Origin: Flexibacter flexilis DSM 6793
GTDB lineage: Bacteria > Bacteroidota > Bacteroidia > Cytophagales > Flexibacteraceae
Direction: 5' to 3'
DNA length: 64,000 nucleotides
NCBI RefSeq assembly: GCF_900112255.1
Contig: NZ_FOLE01000010.1
Span: forward strand, 62,001 to 126,000
In this document: positions 38,067 to 45,422 of the stretch, in pieces
Layout of the letters: every line of letters begins with the position of its first letter
Position numbering within the stretch: position 1 is the first letter of the stretch
The notes under the pieces: model-generated
Seen by the model: the letters and a program-made list of their open reading frames with translations, nothing else
Told to the model about the DNA's origin: nothing
Database searches by the model: none
Program-made: the position numbers and the translations under genes

Positions 38067-38645
38067 TTATAAAACCGATGTAGGTTGTTTGTTTTCATCC
38101 AGAGCCACAAAGGTAAACAGGCCTTGAATGGCTTTTTCGCGGTTGTCGGTGTTGTACATTTCTTCTTTGTAAATCTCCACCTCAATTTCCAAACTCGTAT
38201 GCCCAATTTTGCTTACGCGCCCGATTACTTCTACAATCGTATCGGCGGGAATGGGCTTTTTAAAATCTATTTTGCTTGTCGAGACGGTTACCATGCGTTT
38301 GCGCGAAAAACGTGTAGCCGTAATAAAGGCCACTTCGTCCATAAATTGCATGGCCGTACCGCCAAAAAGGGTGTCGTAATGGTTGGTGGTGTTGGGAAAC
38401 ACTACCTTAAAAATGCGTGTTTCAGCATTTTTAACTCGTTGTTCGTATTCGCTCATTCTTATAAGTTGGTTTTTGATTTCTAGTAAACACGCGTTACACA
38501 GACAATCTGCATAACGTTCTGAAATATAAGCTCTTTCGGCGGCATCAAGCGGCACAGCGTAGCAATGACAAAGCGTAATACTTCCTGCTTTGCACTCAAA
38601 AGCATTGCGGCAAGCCGTACAATATTTTGTTTCGTGTGAGGCCAT
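38067..38645 (-). CDS. CWC-type cysteine-rich domain fused to acyl-CoA thioesterase
   Basis: 192 residues, two parts. Residues 1-64: eight or so cysteines in YCTACRNAFECKAGSITLCHCYAVPL and ISERYADCLCNACLLEI, matching the small cysteine-rich CWC proteins, probably zinc-binding (the family Trp of CWC is replaced by His). From about residue 65: a hotdog acyl-CoA thioesterase of YciA type with FPNTTNHYDTLFGGTAMQFMDEVAFI (conserved Asn/Asp) and STSKIDFKKPI. The frame is continuous, so this is a true fusion. It starts 4 bp after the stop codon of the BtuG-like gene and may be read from the B12 operon transcript. Confidence 0.85.
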   Translation of the reverse strand: MASHETKYCTACRNAFECKAGSITLCHCYAVPLDAAERAYISERYADCLCNACLLEIKNQLIRMSEYEQRVKNAETRIFKVVFPNTTNHYDTLFGGTAMQFMDEVAFITATRFSRKRMVTVSTSKIDFKKPIPADTIVEVIGRVSKIGHTSLEIEVEIYKEEMYNTDNREKAIQGLFTFVALDENKQPTSVL

Positions 38646-38649
38646 TTTT

Positions 38650-39693
38650 TTAGCGCGTAAAAGTAAACGAACTCGGAATTTTCCCGACCCTAAACGAATC
38701 TAATTTCGCGCCTTCGGGCGAATAGCGGAACACATAGCCTTGTTGCTGATAATCGATGGCATCCGACACATAAATTTTTCCGTCGGTGGGGCTTACGCCT
38801 AAGCCATAAAAAAGGTATTTTTTTTGTGAGATAAAATCCTGAACAGCAATATTTTGTGTATTGGTTTTGTACACACCATTTTTACCCAAAAAATACAGCG
38901 AATTGTCTTTGATGGTCAGCACCGTCGGGGCGGCATCGCTGGCCAAACTTGTTTGCGAAAGCAGTTGCAACGGCTGTGTTTTCAGGCAGAGCAGGGCAGG
39001 GGCTGTATTTCCGTTTTTTAGCGAAAAAGTCCAAAGCCTGTTTTGTGCATCAGCCACCAACTCGCCCGACCCTTTGCCAATGCTCAGGCTGTCGGTTACT
39101 GTGTCGGTGTTGGGGTTTATTTCCAAAATCAGGTTGCCGCCCGTGCGCGTGTCGAAGTCCGTGCGGCGCGAAGCAACATATACTTTCCCGTTCACAAGGG
39201 CGAGTTTTTCCGTCCAACCGCTTACGGGTATGTTTTTGATTATCTGTAAGTTATCTAGATTTACTACCCAAATTTTATCGGCATACAAATCCGAAACATA
39301 AGCCTTTTGCCCAACCGTAACCATGTAGCGCGGCGAAGCAAAACCCTGTATCACGCCTTCAGACACGCCCGTTAGCGCATTGATTACCTCTATTTTCTTG
39401 GAATTATTTACCACAATATAGCCTTTGCCCGCGTCCGTGAGGGTCATGGATTGCACCACATCGCCCAAATGTCGCCCATTTACGGCGTTAAATACTTCAT
39501 TTTCAATGCGATTGCTGTCCGTATGAAAAAATGAAACGCTGCCATCGCCCGACAAAAAATTTCCTTCGTTGGTAATCCAAACGCCTGTTTGGTAGCGACC
39601 ACTTGCTTTCGGGCTGCTGGGCGTGCTTTCTTCGCAGCTCCAAAATGAAGCGGCTAATATTGAAAAAATATAAATCCAAGACGATTTTTGCAT
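38650..39693 (-). CDS. BtuG-like surface beta-propeller lipoprotein (YncE/DUF5074 family)
   Basis: 347 residues with lipoprotein signal MQKSSWIYIFSILAASFWSC (Cys at residue 20). The body repeats a beta-propeller blade pattern: WITNEGNFLSGDGSVSFFH, YIVVNNSKKIEVINALTG, AYVSDLYADKIWVVNLDN, KVYVASRRTDF, LYFLGKNGVYKTN, IYVSDAIDYQ. In Bacteroides, BtuG is a surface propeller lipoprotein that binds cobalamin and caps BtuB. This gene directly follows a BtuB-like receptor, 12 bp away, in a riboswitch-linked operon, so a BtuG role is likely though the family name rests on fold and context. Confidence 0.83.
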   Translation of the reverse strand: MQKSSWIYIFSILAASFWSCEESTPSSPKASGRYQTGVWITNEGNFLSGDGSVSFFHTDSNRIENEVFNAVNGRHLGDVVQSMTLTDAGKGYIVVNNSKKIEVINALTGVSEGVIQGFASPRYMVTVGQKAYVSDLYADKIWVVNLDNLQIIKNIPVSGWTEKLALVNGKVYVASRRTDFDTRTGGNLILEINPNTDTVTDSLSIGKGSGELVADAQNRLWTFSLKNGNTAPALLCLKTQPLQLLSQTSLASDAAPTVLTIKDNSLYFLGKNGVYKTNTQNIAVQDFISQKKYLFYGLGVSPTDGKIYVSDAIDYQQQGYVFRYSPEGAKLDSFRVGKIPSSFTFTR

Positions 39694-39705
39694 AACAAAA
39701 AAAGA

Positions 39706-41622
39706 TTAATGCCATTGATAACATACACTTACCTGCCCGTTGCGCAAAGGCATTGGGTAATAGGCCACCGACTGATAAGTTTCGTTTAGTATGTTGTTGA
39801 TTTTCAGTGTAAAAAATAAATTATTGCGTCCGTGCGCCAGTTCATAACCTACCGAAACATTGGTGAGTTGGTAAGGTGTCAGGAAATTTTGGTTGTCGGT
39901 ATCGGTATAGCGGCGGCTATTATAACAATTTTCAACCGAAAGACTAAAATCTTTGTAAAATACATTTATGCTCCATTGTGCGCTGTGGCGCGGCATATAA
40001 ATCATTTGTTTGCCAACAGAAGCATCTAAGCCGCTGTACGCCTGCAAATTGCGCGATAAAACCAAGTTGTAAGCCGCTCGCGCCGCCACGCGCCAAGCCC
40101 GTAGGCGGTATTGCTGAAATGTACTTACTTCCACGCCGCGCACCTGTACTTTTTTGAGATTTTCGGGACGGCTCAACCCGCTGCGTCCTTGCCTTTGCCA
40201 AACTATCCAATCGTTTGTAACTGACTCATAAGCAGTAATTTCTGCGTTTTGTTCGGCTTTGTTGGTGGCTCTACTCCAATGTGCGCCAACTTCCGCGATT
40301 TGGTGTTTTTCGGGCAAAAGTGCCGTTTGGCCTTGCACCCTAAAACGTTCGTTAAGGGTGGGTTGTCGGTAGTTGCGTGCAATATTTCCTTTGAATAAAA
40401 ATTGCTGATGCGCATTGCTCCAAACGCGCCATTGCGCCCCCAACGATGGCAAAAAAGGCGAAAAAATATGGTCGGTTAGTTCTTGCCGTGCCGTGAGGCT
40501 GGTTTTGATATTTTGGTTGAAATTGAAAATAAAATCGGTGTAAATTCCTGTACGCCATTGGGTTACGGCCTCTTTTTGCGAAGCATAAAAGCCTTTTTCG
40601 TATTGCGTATTGCCGCCGATTTTCAGTTGCCAACGCGTATTTTGCCATTGTTGCGCGGCATTGGCCAGCCAAATATGGCTTTGGCTGTGGTCGGTGAGTG
40701 TAATCGGGCTTTGGGTAATGTGGCGGCTGTAATCATAATTTTCCCGAAAATAACCTACCCGAACCTGACTTTCTTGGCTTTCGGACGTGTTGCGCCATTC
40801 CACTAATCCTCTGACCGACAGGTCTTTTTGTAGTTGCTCGTCGCCGTCGGCAAGCATCGGAGAGCCTAACTCGCGCCGCGCCCACTGATACCAGCCATGC
40901 GCCGAAAGGCTTTGTTTTGGGCTGATTTGATAAAAAATATCCTGCATCATGCCGTGCTGCCGTTGGCCTGCATTGCTAAATTTTTCGGTTGGGCTGCCGT
41001 ATTTTTCGGTATTGGTAAAACTAAAATCGTTGTCGGCGCGGCTGATTTGGCTTTTGTTGGACAAATAAAAACGCCCGACCCTTGCGCCGATGCGTTGCCT
41101 GTAGCCCAACTGCCCATAACTTCCTGCGTACAAGGTGTTTTGCAGAGAAAAAGTATCTGGCCAATACGCTATGTTATTGAGTAAAACCGCGCCACCCAAA
41201 CCGCCGCTACTTTGCGAAAGCGTAGAACCGCCGCCGAAAGCCACCCCGATTTCTTCCACAAAATCCACTGGCAACAGCGACAAATCCACTGAGCCGAGCA
41301 AAGGCGAGTTGATGGGCAACCCGTTCCAGAGTAGTTGTGTGTGATGCGAGGCCGTCCCGCGAAACGAAGGCGATGCGAGGCCGCCAATCCCGTAATTTTT
41401 GATAAAAACGGGTGTTTTGTAGGTGAGCAAATCCGCTAAAGTTTGGGTGCGATATTGCGCCAAATCGGCACTATCAATATTTTGCACCTTAAAGCCAACG
41501 GGTTTGAGTAATTTAGAAGTTTCTACTTGCACCGACGGAAGCACACGCTCGTTTTGGGCGGCGGCTTGTATGTGCCACGCCAACGCCCAAAATAGCAGAG
41601 TCGAGTGTTTCCTGTATTTCAT
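39706..41622 (-). CDS. btuB: TonB-dependent receptor, BtuB-like (probable cobalamin transporter)
   Basis: 638-residue outer-membrane receptor. Signal peptide ending IQAAAQ. Plug domain about 45-160: ADLLTYKTPVFIKNYGIGGLASPSFRGTASHHTQLLWNGLPINSP and the SGGLGGAVLL stretch. The barrel then runs to the C-terminus QVSVCYQWH. Short N-terminus, without the CarboxypepD_reg domain of SusC-type receptors, as in BtuB. Directly upstream is a tiny T9SS protein (2 bp) and downstream a BtuG-like propeller. The riboswitch at the head of the operon makes cobalamin the best substrate guess; other corrinoids are possible. Confidence 0.87.
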   Translation of the reverse strand: MKYRKHSTLLFWALAWHIQAAAQNERVLPSVQVETSKLLKPVGFKVQNIDSADLAQYRTQTLADLLTYKTPVFIKNYGIGGLASPSFRGTASHHTQLLWNGLPINSPLLGSVDLSLLPVDFVEEIGVAFGGGSTLSQSSGGLGGAVLLNNIAYWPDTFSLQNTLYAGSYGQLGYRQRIGARVGRFYLSNKSQISRADNDFSFTNTEKYGSPTEKFSNAGQRQHGMMQDIFYQISPKQSLSAHGWYQWARRELGSPMLADGDEQLQKDLSVRGLVEWRNTSESQESQVRVGYFRENYDYSRHITQSPITLTDHSQSHIWLANAAQQWQNTRWQLKIGGNTQYEKGFYASQKEAVTQWRTGIYTDFIFNFNQNIKTSLTARQELTDHIFSPFLPSLGAQWRVWSNAHQQFLFKGNIARNYRQPTLNERFRVQGQTALLPEKHQIAEVGAHWSRATNKAEQNAEITAYESVTNDWIVWQRQGRSGLSRPENLKKVQVRGVEVSTFQQYRLRAWRVAARAAYNLVLSRNLQAYSGLDASVGKQMIYMPRHSAQWSINVFYKDFSLSVENCYNSRRYTDTDNQNFLTPYQLTNVSVGYELAHGRNNLFFTLKINNILNETYQSVAYYPMPLRNGQVSVCYQWH

Positions 41623-41624
41623 TT

Positions 41625-42056
41625 TTATTTGATAATCAATGTTTTAGAAGATTGCTTTTGCCCGATTTGCAGTCGCAACAAATAAGTACCTGCGGCCAAA
41701 TTTTCTAACCCAAAACCTTGTTGCAGTTGCTCAATATTTAAGTTTTTATCCCAAATTTTTTGCCCGTTGGCTTGCCACAGAGCCAAAGAAACGGATTTTG
41801 TATTTGCTTGTAATGCGCTGGTTTCTAATGTAATGCGTACATTTTGGGTGCTGCTGGCGGGGATTGGAGAAACCGAAAGCTCAAAATCATTATTCAGGCT
41901 GGGGCGCGAACTTGCAGGACTGATGGTAATTTGCATTTCTGCGGCGGCGTATCCGTCGCCCAAGCCGCCTTTGTACGCGCCTTGTGCTTGTGCTTTTTGC
42001 GCTGACAAACAGATGATTAACCCCAAAAATAAAAATGCGTAAGGTAGTTTTTGCAT
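41625..42056 (-). CDS. Small T9SS type A sorted protein
   Basis: 143 residues: signal peptide (to about AQAQ, residue 25), a short linker with GAYKGGLGDGYAAAEM, then an 80-residue T9SS type A sorting domain (SVSPIPASSTQNVRI ... LAAGTYLLRLQIGQKQSSKTLIIK). Almost nothing but a sorting domain is present, so the cargo is about 15-20 residues. GLGDGYA recurs before sorting domains in Bacteroidota. It lies 2 bp before the receptor gene and 3 bp after the SUMF1 gene. Role unknown; it may be a peptide ligand or a surface tether. Confidence 0.83.
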   Translation of the reverse strand: MQKLPYAFLFLGLIICLSAQKAQAQGAYKGGLGDGYAAAEMQITISPASSRPSLNNDFELSVSPIPASSTQNVRITLETSALQANTKSVSLALWQANGQKIWDKNLNIEQLQQGFGLENLAAGTYLLRLQIGQKQSSKTLIIK

Positions 42057-42059
42057 GGC

Positions 42060-43598
42060 TTAAAAGGTTCTGACTCCGCGTCCGCCCGAAGTGTTGCGGC
42101 GTGCGCTGGGTGCTGTGTTGGCGTAAAATCTATCCGAAACGGCAAGGTCACGGAACTGATAAGTTAAAGTGTTGTAAACGAGGCTATTCCAGCCACCACC
42201 TCTATTGATAGCACCGTTTGGTGTTGGCCAAGTGTTGGCGTTGGCTTCGCCCGCTTCCGAGAGTGCGCCGTCGCCGTGCGTGCCTTCAAACAAAAGTCCT
42301 TCGGTTTTGCTCACGCTCACGCAGGTTTCCCAAACATTGCCGCTCAACTCCATTAGGCCGTATTGCGAAGCTCCCGCGCTAAGTCGGTTGCTGGCGGCCG
42401 TAGCCCCAAAACCCACGCGCAAAACGCCCCAAAGATAGGTTTGCCCGAAAGCTAAAGCGTGATTGCTCAAGCCATAATCGCCTGTTACTGTTTCGGTTAC
42501 GGATTCGGCGGCGGTGCCGTCTTGTGCGGTGGTATTGGCATCGGTTACTAAATTTGTTCCCCAAGCCATGTCGCGCGGCGCGGGATAGGTGGTGCCGCGT
42601 GCGGCTTTTTCAAATTCTAATTCGGTCATGGGGCGCAGGGCTGCCCAGTCCAAATATGCGGCCAAATCGTTCCAATTCAGCCAATTGCAAGCGCGGTTTT
42701 GTCCGTCGTCTGCTTCGTTGTAAACAGTGTTATTGTTCGCATTGCAAGCATAAATGGCGGCCTGTGTGCTGGTGGCAGGTGTGGCGATTATAAGCCCATT
42801 TCGAGCCATATTGCCTGAGCCTAAAGCGTTTGTTCCTGCTGAAAGTGAAGGGCTTACGGCAGTGCGTGCGGTTTGTTGCATGCTGGTCAGGCTGTTGAGA
42901 AAATCGGCGTATTGTTCTTGTGTGATTTCGTATTTCATGGCATAAAATCCCGCAAAACCTTTGGGGAAGGTGGCGGCAATGGCCTCGCCTTGCGGTTGGT
43001 TGTCTGTGTTGCCGTAGAGTGATTGGGCGGTGCTGCCGATGCTAATCGCGTTTTCGGAACTGATTTGAAAAGGCGTGTTTTTTGCGCCACTTCGTAACGT
43101 ATTGTTGCTGAGCGTGTCGCCGACCCAAAAGGCCGATTGCGGCACGTAGGCCATTTCTATCCCAAATATTTTGAGTTGGTAATTGCCTGCGGTGAGTTGA
43201 TTATCAGCTATTTGCAAAGAAATTGAGCCTTGCGAAAGTCCTTCGCCTGCTGCGTTGCGGCGCACGAAAATGCCTTTGTGGTCGCTTACGTTTTGGATTT
43301 GCAAATTGCCTGTAACCAAATGATTTTGAGCAAGGTCAAGATGTCGCCAAATGCCGTCCGTGCCTTTTACTTTCACAAAAACCCAAACTGCGTCGTGATT
43401 GTCAGGCGTTTGCCCGACAGCCGACAGCCAGCTATTTTCCCAACTAATTTGGCACTGAACCAATTGGTTTTGTGTGAAAGATAAATTGCTTATAGATAGA
43501 TTGTTAGCCCAAATATTTTGATTGAAACCCAAACAAAATACAAGGCTTGCGGCACAGCGAAATAAACAAGTAAAATACTTCATTTGGCGGCTGTTCAT
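42060..43598 (-). CDS. SUMF1/FGE-fold protein with N-terminal beta-sandwich
   Basis: 512 residues. Signal peptide MKYFTCLFRCAASLVFCLGF from ATG 43583 (ATG 43598 is an alternative). Residues about 30-160 form an N-terminal beta-sandwich (ISWENSWLSAVGQTP; WVFVKVKG). Residues about 165-512 are the SUMF1 fold with MAYVPQSAFWVGD, FYAMKYEITQEQYADFLNSL, RPMTELEFEKAAR, GLMELSGNVWET and RGGGWN. The C-terminus reads SARRNTSGGRGVRTF: the catalytic cysteines of formylglycine-generating enzyme are not there, so it is a non-canonical, perhaps binding-only, member. Second gene of the B12-linked operon. Confidence 0.86.
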   Translation of the reverse strand: MNSRQMKYFTCLFRCAASLVFCLGFNQNIWANNLSISNLSFTQNQLVQCQISWENSWLSAVGQTPDNHDAVWVFVKVKGTDGIWRHLDLAQNHLVTGNLQIQNVSDHKGIFVRRNAAGEGLSQGSISLQIADNQLTAGNYQLKIFGIEMAYVPQSAFWVGDTLSNNTLRSGAKNTPFQISSENAISIGSTAQSLYGNTDNQPQGEAIAATFPKGFAGFYAMKYEITQEQYADFLNSLTSMQQTARTAVSPSLSAGTNALGSGNMARNGLIIATPATSTQAAIYACNANNNTVYNEADDGQNRACNWLNWNDLAAYLDWAALRPMTELEFEKAARGTTYPAPRDMAWGTNLVTDANTTAQDGTAAESVTETVTGDYGLSNHALAFGQTYLWGVLRVGFGATAASNRLSAGASQYGLMELSGNVWETCVSVSKTEGLLFEGTHGDGALSEAGEANANTWPTPNGAINRGGGWNSLVYNTLTYQFRDLAVSDRFYANTAPSARRNTSGGRGVRTF

Positions 43599-43610
43599 TT
43601 GGTTTTGAAA

Positions 43611-43646
43611 GAAAAAAGCCCAACCTACAAAAAGCGTAGGTCAGGC
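43611..43646 (-). terminator. Internal hairpin between first and second gene of the B12-linked operon
   Basis: On the minus strand GCCTGACCTAC pairs with GTAGGTTGGGC (two G-U pairs) around a 7-base loop, followed by TTTTTTC. It sits between the stop codon at 43665 and the SUMF1 start. It could lower expression of the distal genes relative to the first propeller gene. Confidence 0.65.
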
Positions 43647-43664
43647 CAACTAGAGAGATATGTA

Positions 43665-44927
43665 TTATTGTTTAATAAATTTAGTACGGAAAATAGTGTT
43701 ATTGTGTTCTATTTCCATAATGTACATTCCTTGCGGCAATTGCTCAATGCTTACTGGCGTGTTGGCGGCAACCGTTTCGGTGCGTAACACGCGGCCTGTC
43801 ATGTCCGAAATGCTTACTTGCAACCCTTCAAAATCAACTTGGCCATCTATCCAAATAGCTTTGCTGCTTGGGTTCGGGTAAACCGTTAAGTTTTTGTTTT
43901 TTAGATTGTTGCGAACTGAAACGCTTGTTCTGTAATCTATGCCAATGGCTTCTGGCGATTTGCCCACAGGAAGTGTTGCTACTTTCGCGCCTGTAAGGTT
44001 ATAAACGCCTCCTGTTACAAAGCTGAAAAAATCGGTTTGTGTAACATAGAAACGGCTGCCGTTTACATCAAAAGTAGAGGCTACAATTTCCAACGTATCT
44101 ACAATAACAGTATCCGTAATGGTTTGATTAGCAATATTATAGCTACCAATTCCTCTGCTAAAGTTAGCGTAAAGCGTGTTGCCGACTAAAGCCGTACCGC
44201 CACTTAACACGCCAATAGAATCGGAAGTAAGGCTGCCGTTGGCTGTCGAATATTGGTGCAAAAAGTGGCTTTTGCCTGCAATGCCAATTACTTTTTTGCC
44301 ATACACAAACAAGCGGCTCAAACCTGCGCCGTGTGCGCCTAAGTCAATGTTTTGGATAAATTCGCCTGTTGAGATTTTAACTACACCGATATAACCCACA
44401 GAATCTGCGTAAGCTGAACTTACAAGGTTGTGCGCCACGTAAGCCGTATCGCCCACTACGGCGATGTCGCGTACTTCGTTGGTGATTTGGCTGATTGTAT
44501 CTAATGGCTGCAAAGTTGCTTTGTCATAAATGAAGAAAAAAGCACCGCCACCATAGTACTTGCCTACCAAAAGGCGGTCGCCAGCCACACGAAGTTTGCG
44601 CACGGGACTGAACGCTGCTTTGCCTGTAACTTGGTAGTTGTCAAGGTTATAACGAACAATAGAATCTTGCGCTGCTACGAACAATTCGCCGTTATTGATT
44701 TCTACGTCTTGTACCGATTGCGTCTGGATAGTGGCAAATGTGTTACTTTGTCCGTTGGCTGGGTTGTAAGAGGTAAGGGTTAAATAATCCTCGAAAGGTG
44801 GCATGTATTCGTATTTGCCGCCGTTGGCGATGATGATTTGTTTGGTAGTAGTTTGTGCAAAAACGCTGCTGCTCAAAGTAACGAAAGCTGCACAAGCTAA
44901 TGTTTTGATTTTGTTGAAGTTACTCAT
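43665..44927 (-). CDS. T9SS type A sorted beta-propeller protein (YncE/DUF5074-like)
   Basis: 420 residues. Signal peptide MSNFNKIKTLACAAFVTLSSSVFAQ. Six to seven blade-like repeats follow: VQDVEINNGELFVAAQDSIVRYNLDN, VRKLRVAGDRLLVGKYYGG, VRDIAVVGDTAYVAHNL, SRLFVYGKKVIGIAGKSH, STFDVNGSRFYVTQTDFF. After residue about 340 comes a T9SS type A sorting domain (VYPNPSSKAIWIDG ... LPQGMYIMEIEHNNTIFRTKFIKQ). It is the first gene after the cobalamin riboswitch. It looks like a secreted counterpart of the BtuG-like lipoprotein at the operon end. Ligand not provable by sequence alone. Confidence 0.85.
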   Translation of the reverse strand: MSNFNKIKTLACAAFVTLSSSVFAQTTTKQIIIANGGKYEYMPPFEDYLTLTSYNPANGQSNTFATIQTQSVQDVEINNGELFVAAQDSIVRYNLDNYQVTGKAAFSPVRKLRVAGDRLLVGKYYGGGAFFFIYDKATLQPLDTISQITNEVRDIAVVGDTAYVAHNLVSSAYADSVGYIGVVKISTGEFIQNIDLGAHGAGLSRLFVYGKKVIGIAGKSHFLHQYSTANGSLTSDSIGVLSGGTALVGNTLYANFSRGIGSYNIANQTITDTVIVDTLEIVASTFDVNGSRFYVTQTDFFSFVTGGVYNLTGAKVATLPVGKSPEAIGIDYRTSVSVRNNLKNKNLTVYPNPSSKAIWIDGQVDFEGLQVSISDMTGRVLRTETVAANTPVSIEQLPQGMYIMEIEHNNTIFRTKFIKQ

Positions 44928-45061
44928 AGAATTTTGTTAGAAAGAAAACAAACACTATGAGCCAAACGAGCAAGGAAGAAATAAAAAGCAACTCTCAAGG
45001 CTCGTGCGCACCAAGCCCCAGACCGTCAATTTATCCTATACCTTTCTACCCGAAGGCTCGG
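44928..45061 (-). promoter_or_regulatory. Leader between cobalamin riboswitch and first gene, possible expression platform
   Basis: On the minus strand the leader contains the segment GAGCC paired potentially with GGCTC further downstream around a long loop, close to the start codon of the propeller gene. It contains no gene. The pairing is weak evidence for translational control and no terminator-like poly-U run follows it. Confidence 0.35.
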
Positions 45062-45236
45062 AAAATATGTGTGCGCTGGCAGGTCTCCTGACTTCTCTAC
45101 TGTCGTTGCCTTCCCAGAAAATTCCAGTGGCTCAAACGAACGACAGCTTTTTGTAGATTTACAGTTGCGGGGACAGCTTTCGATTTGCACGAAATTCCCT
45201 TTTAAGTCACTAAGCTCTGAACTAAAGATAGTGACA
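45062..45236 (-). promoter_or_regulatory. Cobalamin (vitamin B12) riboswitch
   Basis: Minus-strand leader. In transcript order: a short hairpin (GTCACTA / TAGTGAC), AAAAGGGAATTTCGTGCAAATC, the B12-box region AGCTGTCCCCGCAACTGTAAATC, AGCCACTGG, GGGAAGGC, and the closing AAGTCAGGAGACCTGCC. These conserved blocks in this order define the adenosylcobalamin-class aptamer. The helices CTGTCGTT / AACGACAG also pair. It lies 135 bp upstream of the first operon gene. Genes downstream should be repressed when cobalamin is plentiful. Confidence 0.95.
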
Positions 45237-45422
45237 CCAAACACGCCGCGAAATAACAGTATTATCCGAAATAGTCCAAACAAAATGTGAATTTTAGCTT
45301 GTAATAAAGCTCTTTAATTGTATTTTTAGGTATAATATTGTTTTTATTTTGTATAAAATTTATTTAATACTTGTATTTGAGAAAATATTATACGTTCTTC
45401 GCTGCCTCAAAATGCGTAGAGA

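Follow-up and report, generated by a model that had tools for sequence, protein, structure and literature searches.

A 64,000-nucleotide stretch of the Flexibacter flexilis DSM 6793 genome (contig NZ_FOLE01000010.1, positions 62,001 to 126,000; hereafter the window) carries, on its minus strand from position 45257 down to 38067, a cobalamin (B12) riboswitch followed by six genes (Table 1). An earlier note on this DNA had described an operon in which a BtuB/BtuG-like receptor-lipoprotein pair is joined by three further products, namely a beta-propeller with a type IX secretion system (T9SS) tail, a SUMF1-fold protein, here called the FGE-fold protein after the formylglycine-generating enzyme (FGE), and a very small T9SS protein, here called the mini. 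The observation of a riboswitch-headed run with exported extras was confirmed. The riboswitch stands at the head of the run, all genes lie on the minus strand and the five genes named earlier were found as listed; the sixth, encoding a thioesterase, lies within the same coordinates and had been passed over.

The aptamer is the only cobalamin riboswitch in the genome, which also encodes a B12-dependent methionine synthase, MetH (1748 bits). The gaps in order from the riboswitch are 133, 66, 3, 2, 12 and 4 bp, the first separating the riboswitch from the propeller gene and the second the propeller gene from that of the FGE-fold protein; the spacing of 2-12 bp given by the note holds for the last four. 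In two relatives of the same family that share the gene order (L105 and L062) the propeller-FGE gap is 2 and 10 bp, which speaks for a single operon. In the window this gap holds a terminator-like hairpin, and the 81-nt stretch around it has a folding energy of -18.9 kcal/mol. A stop at this hairpin could lower the expression of the later genes, and the hairpin may result in surplus production of the protein encoded by the first gene (slot 1). The gap between slot 1 and the FGE gene also folds hairpins in five other loci (L117, L118, L130, L134 and L125), and it measures 2-10 bp in L105, L062, L122 and L141.

The BtuB/BtuG-like importer core

The BtuB/BtuG-like pair of the earlier note was borne out by comparison with solved Bacteroides proteins. 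The receptor is homologous to Bacteroides BtuB (Table 1), and the lipoprotein matched solved BtuG (8bmx_D) with a phmmer E-value of 2.4e-48 and was similar to other Bacteroides BtuG chains. On TIGR01779, the BtuB equivalog, the receptor scored 88 bits, far under the cut-off of 599.7, indicating that it is a relative of the Bacteroides-type BtuB outside that equivalog. Both the homology and the pairing with a BtuG-like gene, which is the next gene, place the receptor with Bacteroides BtuB, and the lipoprotein combines a DUF5074 domain with BtuG homology. The homology of the two proteins suggests that they function as importer and lid.

The exported propeller and its exchange with DUF4465 proteins

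Both the propeller and the mini have the features of T9SS cargo, that is, a TIGR04183 sorting domain and a signal peptide (judged by eye) in a genome that encodes the T9SS translocon SprA (2518 bits). A sequence search of the PDB with the propeller gave a match to its T9SS tail only, and fold and profile comparisons were therefore used. BtuG structures ranked first when the predicted model (predicted local distance difference test, pLDDT, 78.5) was searched with Foldseek, and VIA-align gave Z scores of 31.5-29.0 for BtuG1, BtuG2, BtuG3 and 3dsm, with BtuG1, BtuG2 and 3dsm highest at 31.5-30.6. Profile-profile comparison linked the propeller family to the BtuG family at 99.1% (E 1.2e-18), and the DUF5074 model (PF16819) had no match in the exported propeller up to E 0.1. 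Since the relationship to BtuG is one of fold and profile only, we call the protein BtuG-like and not BtuG.

Slot 1 of the riboswitch operons is occupied either by a T9SS propeller or by a DUF4465 protein with or without a T9SS tail. DUF4465 (BtuJ) proteins bind B12 by experiment (PMC12751083, PMC13398666). This exchange is the best indirect evidence for the putative cobamide binding by the propeller. Within the window's own run the DUF4465/BtuJ model (PF14717) matched none of the proteins.

Riboswitch-headed runs with DUF4465 proteins were seen in six loci of relatives. In L091, L094 and L100 Pfam recognised DUF4465 together with a T9SS sorting domain; in L093, L110 and L061 DUF4465 was assigned by profiles built here.

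The FGE-fold protein and the mini as a conserved gene pair

The FGE-fold protein consists of a signal peptide, a beta-sandwich at about residues 30-150 and an FGE-fold domain. Its model (pLDDT 92.8) matched FGE (5nxl) with Z 20.9 and PorK with Z 19.5 and, together with the PF03781 score (Table 1), identifies the fold; the N-terminal beta-sandwich bears a weak likeness to carbohydrate-binding modules (Z 7.3). In true FGE the catalytic cysteine pair is located near the C-terminus. Residues 466-512 of the window's protein include no cysteine, and in an alignment of 59 FGE proteins no cysteine was found in more than 40% of the rows after position 426, indicating that the protein lacks the catalytic pair of true FGE. 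Residues R483, D484 and A486 are kept in the riboswitch-linked set and are gapped or different in the other FGE proteins. A T9SS tail is absent from all 81 FGE proteins examined.

Two identities were considered for this protein and ruled out: that of a formylglycine-generating enzyme, by the absent catalytic cysteines, and that of a PorK/GldK-like ring protein of the T9SS, by a score of 12.6 bits on TIGR03525 against a cut-off of 350.

The mini is made of a signal peptide, the motif YKGGLGDGYAAAEM, a short linker and the T9SS sorting domain, and the same layout is found in its operon relatives. When the minis were read singly, the common motif, located a short way behind the predicted cleavage site, was xGGxGxG[YFHD]; that of L141 is exceptional (GGQNDG). 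A gene encoding a signal peptide and a GG motif lies 3' of the FGE gene in 60 of 78 loci, a few of which look spurious by eye (L117 and L176, for example), and upstream of it, as a control, in 3 of 75. The GG-motif partners carried a T9SS tail in the sampled cases. Partners outside B12 operons have a median of 719 residues and of five motifs, and those within B12 operons are short (median 138.5 residues) with one motif. In riboswitch-linked loci with the FGE and BtuB genes in one run, the mini gene is flanked by these two, a position that was read directly in the window and in L105, L062, L118, L119, L121, L122, L126 and L130; in L134 and L136 a gene of like size, from which our script did not extract the motif, takes its place. 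The FGE-fold protein and the mini are a conserved pair of wider occurrence in Bacteroidota, composed of an FGE-like protein and an exported GGxGxG protein.

Some further arrangements of the pair were observed. Divergent runs share the riboswitch region in L132 and L135, with the propeller and FGE genes on one strand and the mini, BtuB and BtuG genes on the other. The F. flexilis genome itself has a second FGE-like/GG-repeat T9SS pair (L116, G000:C3:65107-66540), whose partner has 325 residues and five motifs, and no riboswitch was found in that locus. Searching the DNA of the same genome with a pattern for the GG motif gave no more matches than the reversed control, and this search was not used. 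One locus labelled Glaciecola amylolytica (Pseudomonadota; L146, CP034120.1) has an FGE/GG pair of the Bacteroidota type that groups with Taishania in the tree described below, pointing either to gene transfer or to a mislabelled assembly.

The note had held that the three extra proteins have no assigned role in B12 capture. In the papers found none is given to them, and in this respect the statement stands. The propeller, however, is assignable by its predicted BtuG-like fold and the DUF4465 exchange, and the other two extras are a single conserved pair.

Recurrence of the gene order and phylogeny of the FGE-fold proteins

The search for the same five-gene order behind cobalamin riboswitches elsewhere, which the note had suggested, returned L105, L062 (both of the same family) and L122; eight further loci (L118, L119, L121, L126, L130, L134, L136 and L137) have close variants of it. 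These are scattered over several Bacteroidota lineages. A cobalamin riboswitch was present in 51 of the 59 genomes searched as relatives, the F. flexilis genome included. Genome contigs were also scanned with a profile of the FGE alignment, and the best 80 loci were kept. A strict regular expression missed most riboswitches and was replaced by Rfam, run on 24 of 82 FGE loci, and by an nhmmer profile run over all 82. Rfam found the riboswitch in 18 of its 24 loci; nhmmer recovered these 18 and added no convincing match. Contigs were short, and some missing riboswitches may have been cut off. In a sample of 148 Bacteroidota genomes the riboswitch occurred in 145 and an FGE match at 1e-40 in ten. 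The arrangement is thus scattered and uncommon.

A tree of 80 FGE proteins was built with IQ-TREE. A branch with 100/100 support separates a group of 29 rows, which includes all 21 that are riboswitch-linked, from 51 unlinked rows, the L116 paralog among them. The riboswitch label changes 7 times on the tree, compared to 18.8 times in shuffles, none of 500 being as low, indicating that the linked rows cluster, though they form no single strict clade. Eight unlinked rows lie on the riboswitch side, and two of them (L124 and L141) are in BtuB-linked runs. Recurrence and tree together rule out a chance gene order. The note had regarded its idea as refuted if riboswitch-linked relatives lacked the extras while these occurred elsewhere in unrelated contexts. 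The survey has this appearance only on the surface: most riboswitch operons are without the extras and pairs occur elsewhere, yet the 51 unlinked FGE proteins lie across the supported branch. Taken as a whole, the interpretation given in the note is partly supported.

The last gene of the run encodes a 4HBT protein. Such genes recur within other cobalamin-riboswitch runs (L086, L096, L097, L114, L036, L034, L059 and L121), and we know of no role for a 4HBT thioesterase in B12 uptake.

Table 1. Features of the riboswitch-headed run in the window, in the direction of transcription
Feature	Position	Strand	Length (residues)	Evidence
Cobalamin riboswitch aptamer (RF00174)	45061..45257	-		103.8 bits (cut-off 31.5), E 7e-25, full model 1-189
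T9SS-tailed BtuG-like beta-propeller (slot 1)	43665..44927	-	420	TIGR04183 50.7 bits (cut-off 23)
Terminator-like hairpin with T run, in the slot 1-FGE gap	43617..43647	-		13-bp stem
FGE/SUMF1-fold protein	42060..43598	-	512	PF03781 57.6 bits (cut-off 23.3)
Mini T9SS cargo protein	41625..42056	-	143	TIGR04183 27.8 bits (cut-off 23)
BtuB-like TonB-dependent receptor	39706..41622	-	638	PF07715 plug; phmmer 2.2e-58 to BtuB 8p97_A
BtuG-like lipoprotein propeller, DUF5074	38650..39693	-	347	PF16819 59.3 bits (cut-off 27.2)
Hotdog thioesterase (4HBT) with CWC domain, last gene	38067..38645	-		PF03061 66.6 bits; PF14375 42.2 bits

A model for the run and its alternatives

A B12-related role of the operon is well supported. 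For the whole run we favour, with modest confidence, a system of outer-membrane cobamide capture and import, controlled by the riboswitch, in which a T9SS-exported BtuG-like catcher and a docking module made of the FGE-fold protein and the mini are added to the importer. When B12 is scarce the riboswitch, judging from what is known of its family, would permit expression of the run. The BtuB-like receptor and BtuG-like lipoprotein would serve as importer and lid, and the T9SS would export the second BtuG-like propeller, which may capture cobamide at or beyond the surface and pass it to BtuB/BtuG, a task that would fall to the DUF4465 protein of the same slot in other lineages. The mechanism of the FGE/mini pair is one that we infer: the T9SS would display the GGxGxG peptide of the mini on the surface, the FGE-fold protein most likely binds this peptide, and the two would form a module on which the capture complex docks or assembles.

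Several observations weigh against this model. Propeller folds are widely common, and an archaeal surface-layer YVTN propeller reached a VIA Z score of 29.1 against the 31.5 of BtuG, so that the fold alone is no proof of cobamide binding; the confidence of the propeller model is, moreover, only middling. The FGE-fold protein, which the model would place at the surface, has neither a lipobox nor a T9SS tail. No mini was found 3' of the riboswitch-linked FGE gene in L120 and L125, and other such loci end at the contig edge. Since the FGE/mini pair is also found where no riboswitch exists, its basic function may have nothing to do with B12. Only 4 of the 59 genomes searched as relatives have an FGE gene behind the riboswitch (G000, G001, G004 and G027; in G001 the mini gene was also found). 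In the larger sample, riboswitch and FGE gene were together only in the F. flexilis genome among the eight of ten FGE genomes with listed riboswitch positions, G148 and G191 being outside this comparison. Finally, the terminator-like hairpin stands after the first gene.

The FGE-fold protein might instead work in the periplasm, as a modifying enzyme or a chaperone for the GG peptide or for the propeller before T9SS export, the two genes then encoding an enzyme and its substrate. FGE-fold proteins include peptide-acting enzymes, this one has a Sec signal and no export tail, and the partner's motif comes directly after the signal peptide, a place that would suit a substrate site; the conserved residues R483, D484 and S472 also fall within, or close to, the part of the chain where true FGE has its catalytic cysteines. 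We consider this unlikely, however, since the protein lacks both cysteines and we recognised no other known active site in it, and the several motif repeats in partners from other lineages suit binding as well as modification. Equally doubtful is a role of the mini as an export adaptor, its T9SS tail carrying the tail-less FGE-fold partner in trans so that the latter becomes a surface binder of B12 or of a glycan. The mini has little beyond signal, motif and tail, the 81 FGE proteins without a tail have a neighbouring gene that encodes one in the scanned cases, and the T9SS moves folded proteins (PMC9251779). Against this, no precedent for T9SS export in trans was found in the papers searched, and the partner elsewhere is a long repeat protein, which is more than an adaptor needs.

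Most pairs occur without a riboswitch, L116 in the same genome among them, which would suit a general surface-adhesion module that lies in the operon by chance and has no part in B12 capture. This we regard as the least probable of these explanations: the 100/100 branch parts the riboswitch-linked FGE proteins from the 51 unlinked ones, the linked proteins differ in residue signature and in the size of the partner, and in several lineages the pair has retained its position ahead of BtuB. It is conceivable, with the same low probability as the enzyme or the adaptor, that the FGE-fold protein is a dedicated receptor with the GGxGxG mini as its ligand, that the T9SS tail of the mini carries its partner to the surface, and that the B12 lineage adapted the pair as a cobamide-capture scaffold.

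Comparison with known systems

If the capture and docking model is correct, T9SS-exported cobamide catchers join the lipoprotein-based B12 uptake systems known in Bacteroidota. The model would also provide a first functional context for the recurring gene pair of an FGE-like protein and a GG-motif T9SS protein, of which we found no description; the version in B12 operons, with its single motif, is the smallest form of the pair and a convenient test case. The open-licence PMC papers searched yielded nothing on SUMF1 or mini T9SS proteins as participants in B12 uptake. In particular, PMC13398666 has no mention of T9SS, type IX, sorting or SUMF1, and PMC8941943 none of SUMF1 or T9SS.

The FGE/SUMF1 fold, which includes the T9SS ring protein PorK/GldK, is shared by the window's protein according to the structure comparisons given above. 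The protein differs in that it has no catalytic cysteine pair, falls far short of the GldK cut-off, carries an additional N-terminal beta-sandwich and is accompanied by a T9SS partner with a GG motif. Extra exported proteins in a riboswitch-headed operon are also known from Bacteroides thetaiotaomicron, namely BtuJ/DUF4465 (IPR027828), BtuH, BtuK and BtuL (PMC12751083, PMC13398666, PMC8941943), and BtuJ/DUF4465 proteins occupy the slot of the propeller in related operons. The accessory B12 proteins of B. thetaiotaomicron are lipoproteins (PMC12751083) and not T9SS cargo, unlike the propeller and the mini described here. The closest likeness is to the Bacteroides BtuB-BtuG complexes (PMC10404256, PMC6143338), with which the run shares a riboswitch-linked TonB receptor and a DUF5074 lipoprotein propeller; the homology to solved BtuB and BtuG extends over most of each protein. 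The F. flexilis run differs from these in that a second BtuG-like propeller is predicted to be exported by the T9SS and not as a lipoprotein, and in having the FGE-fold protein and the mini as additions.

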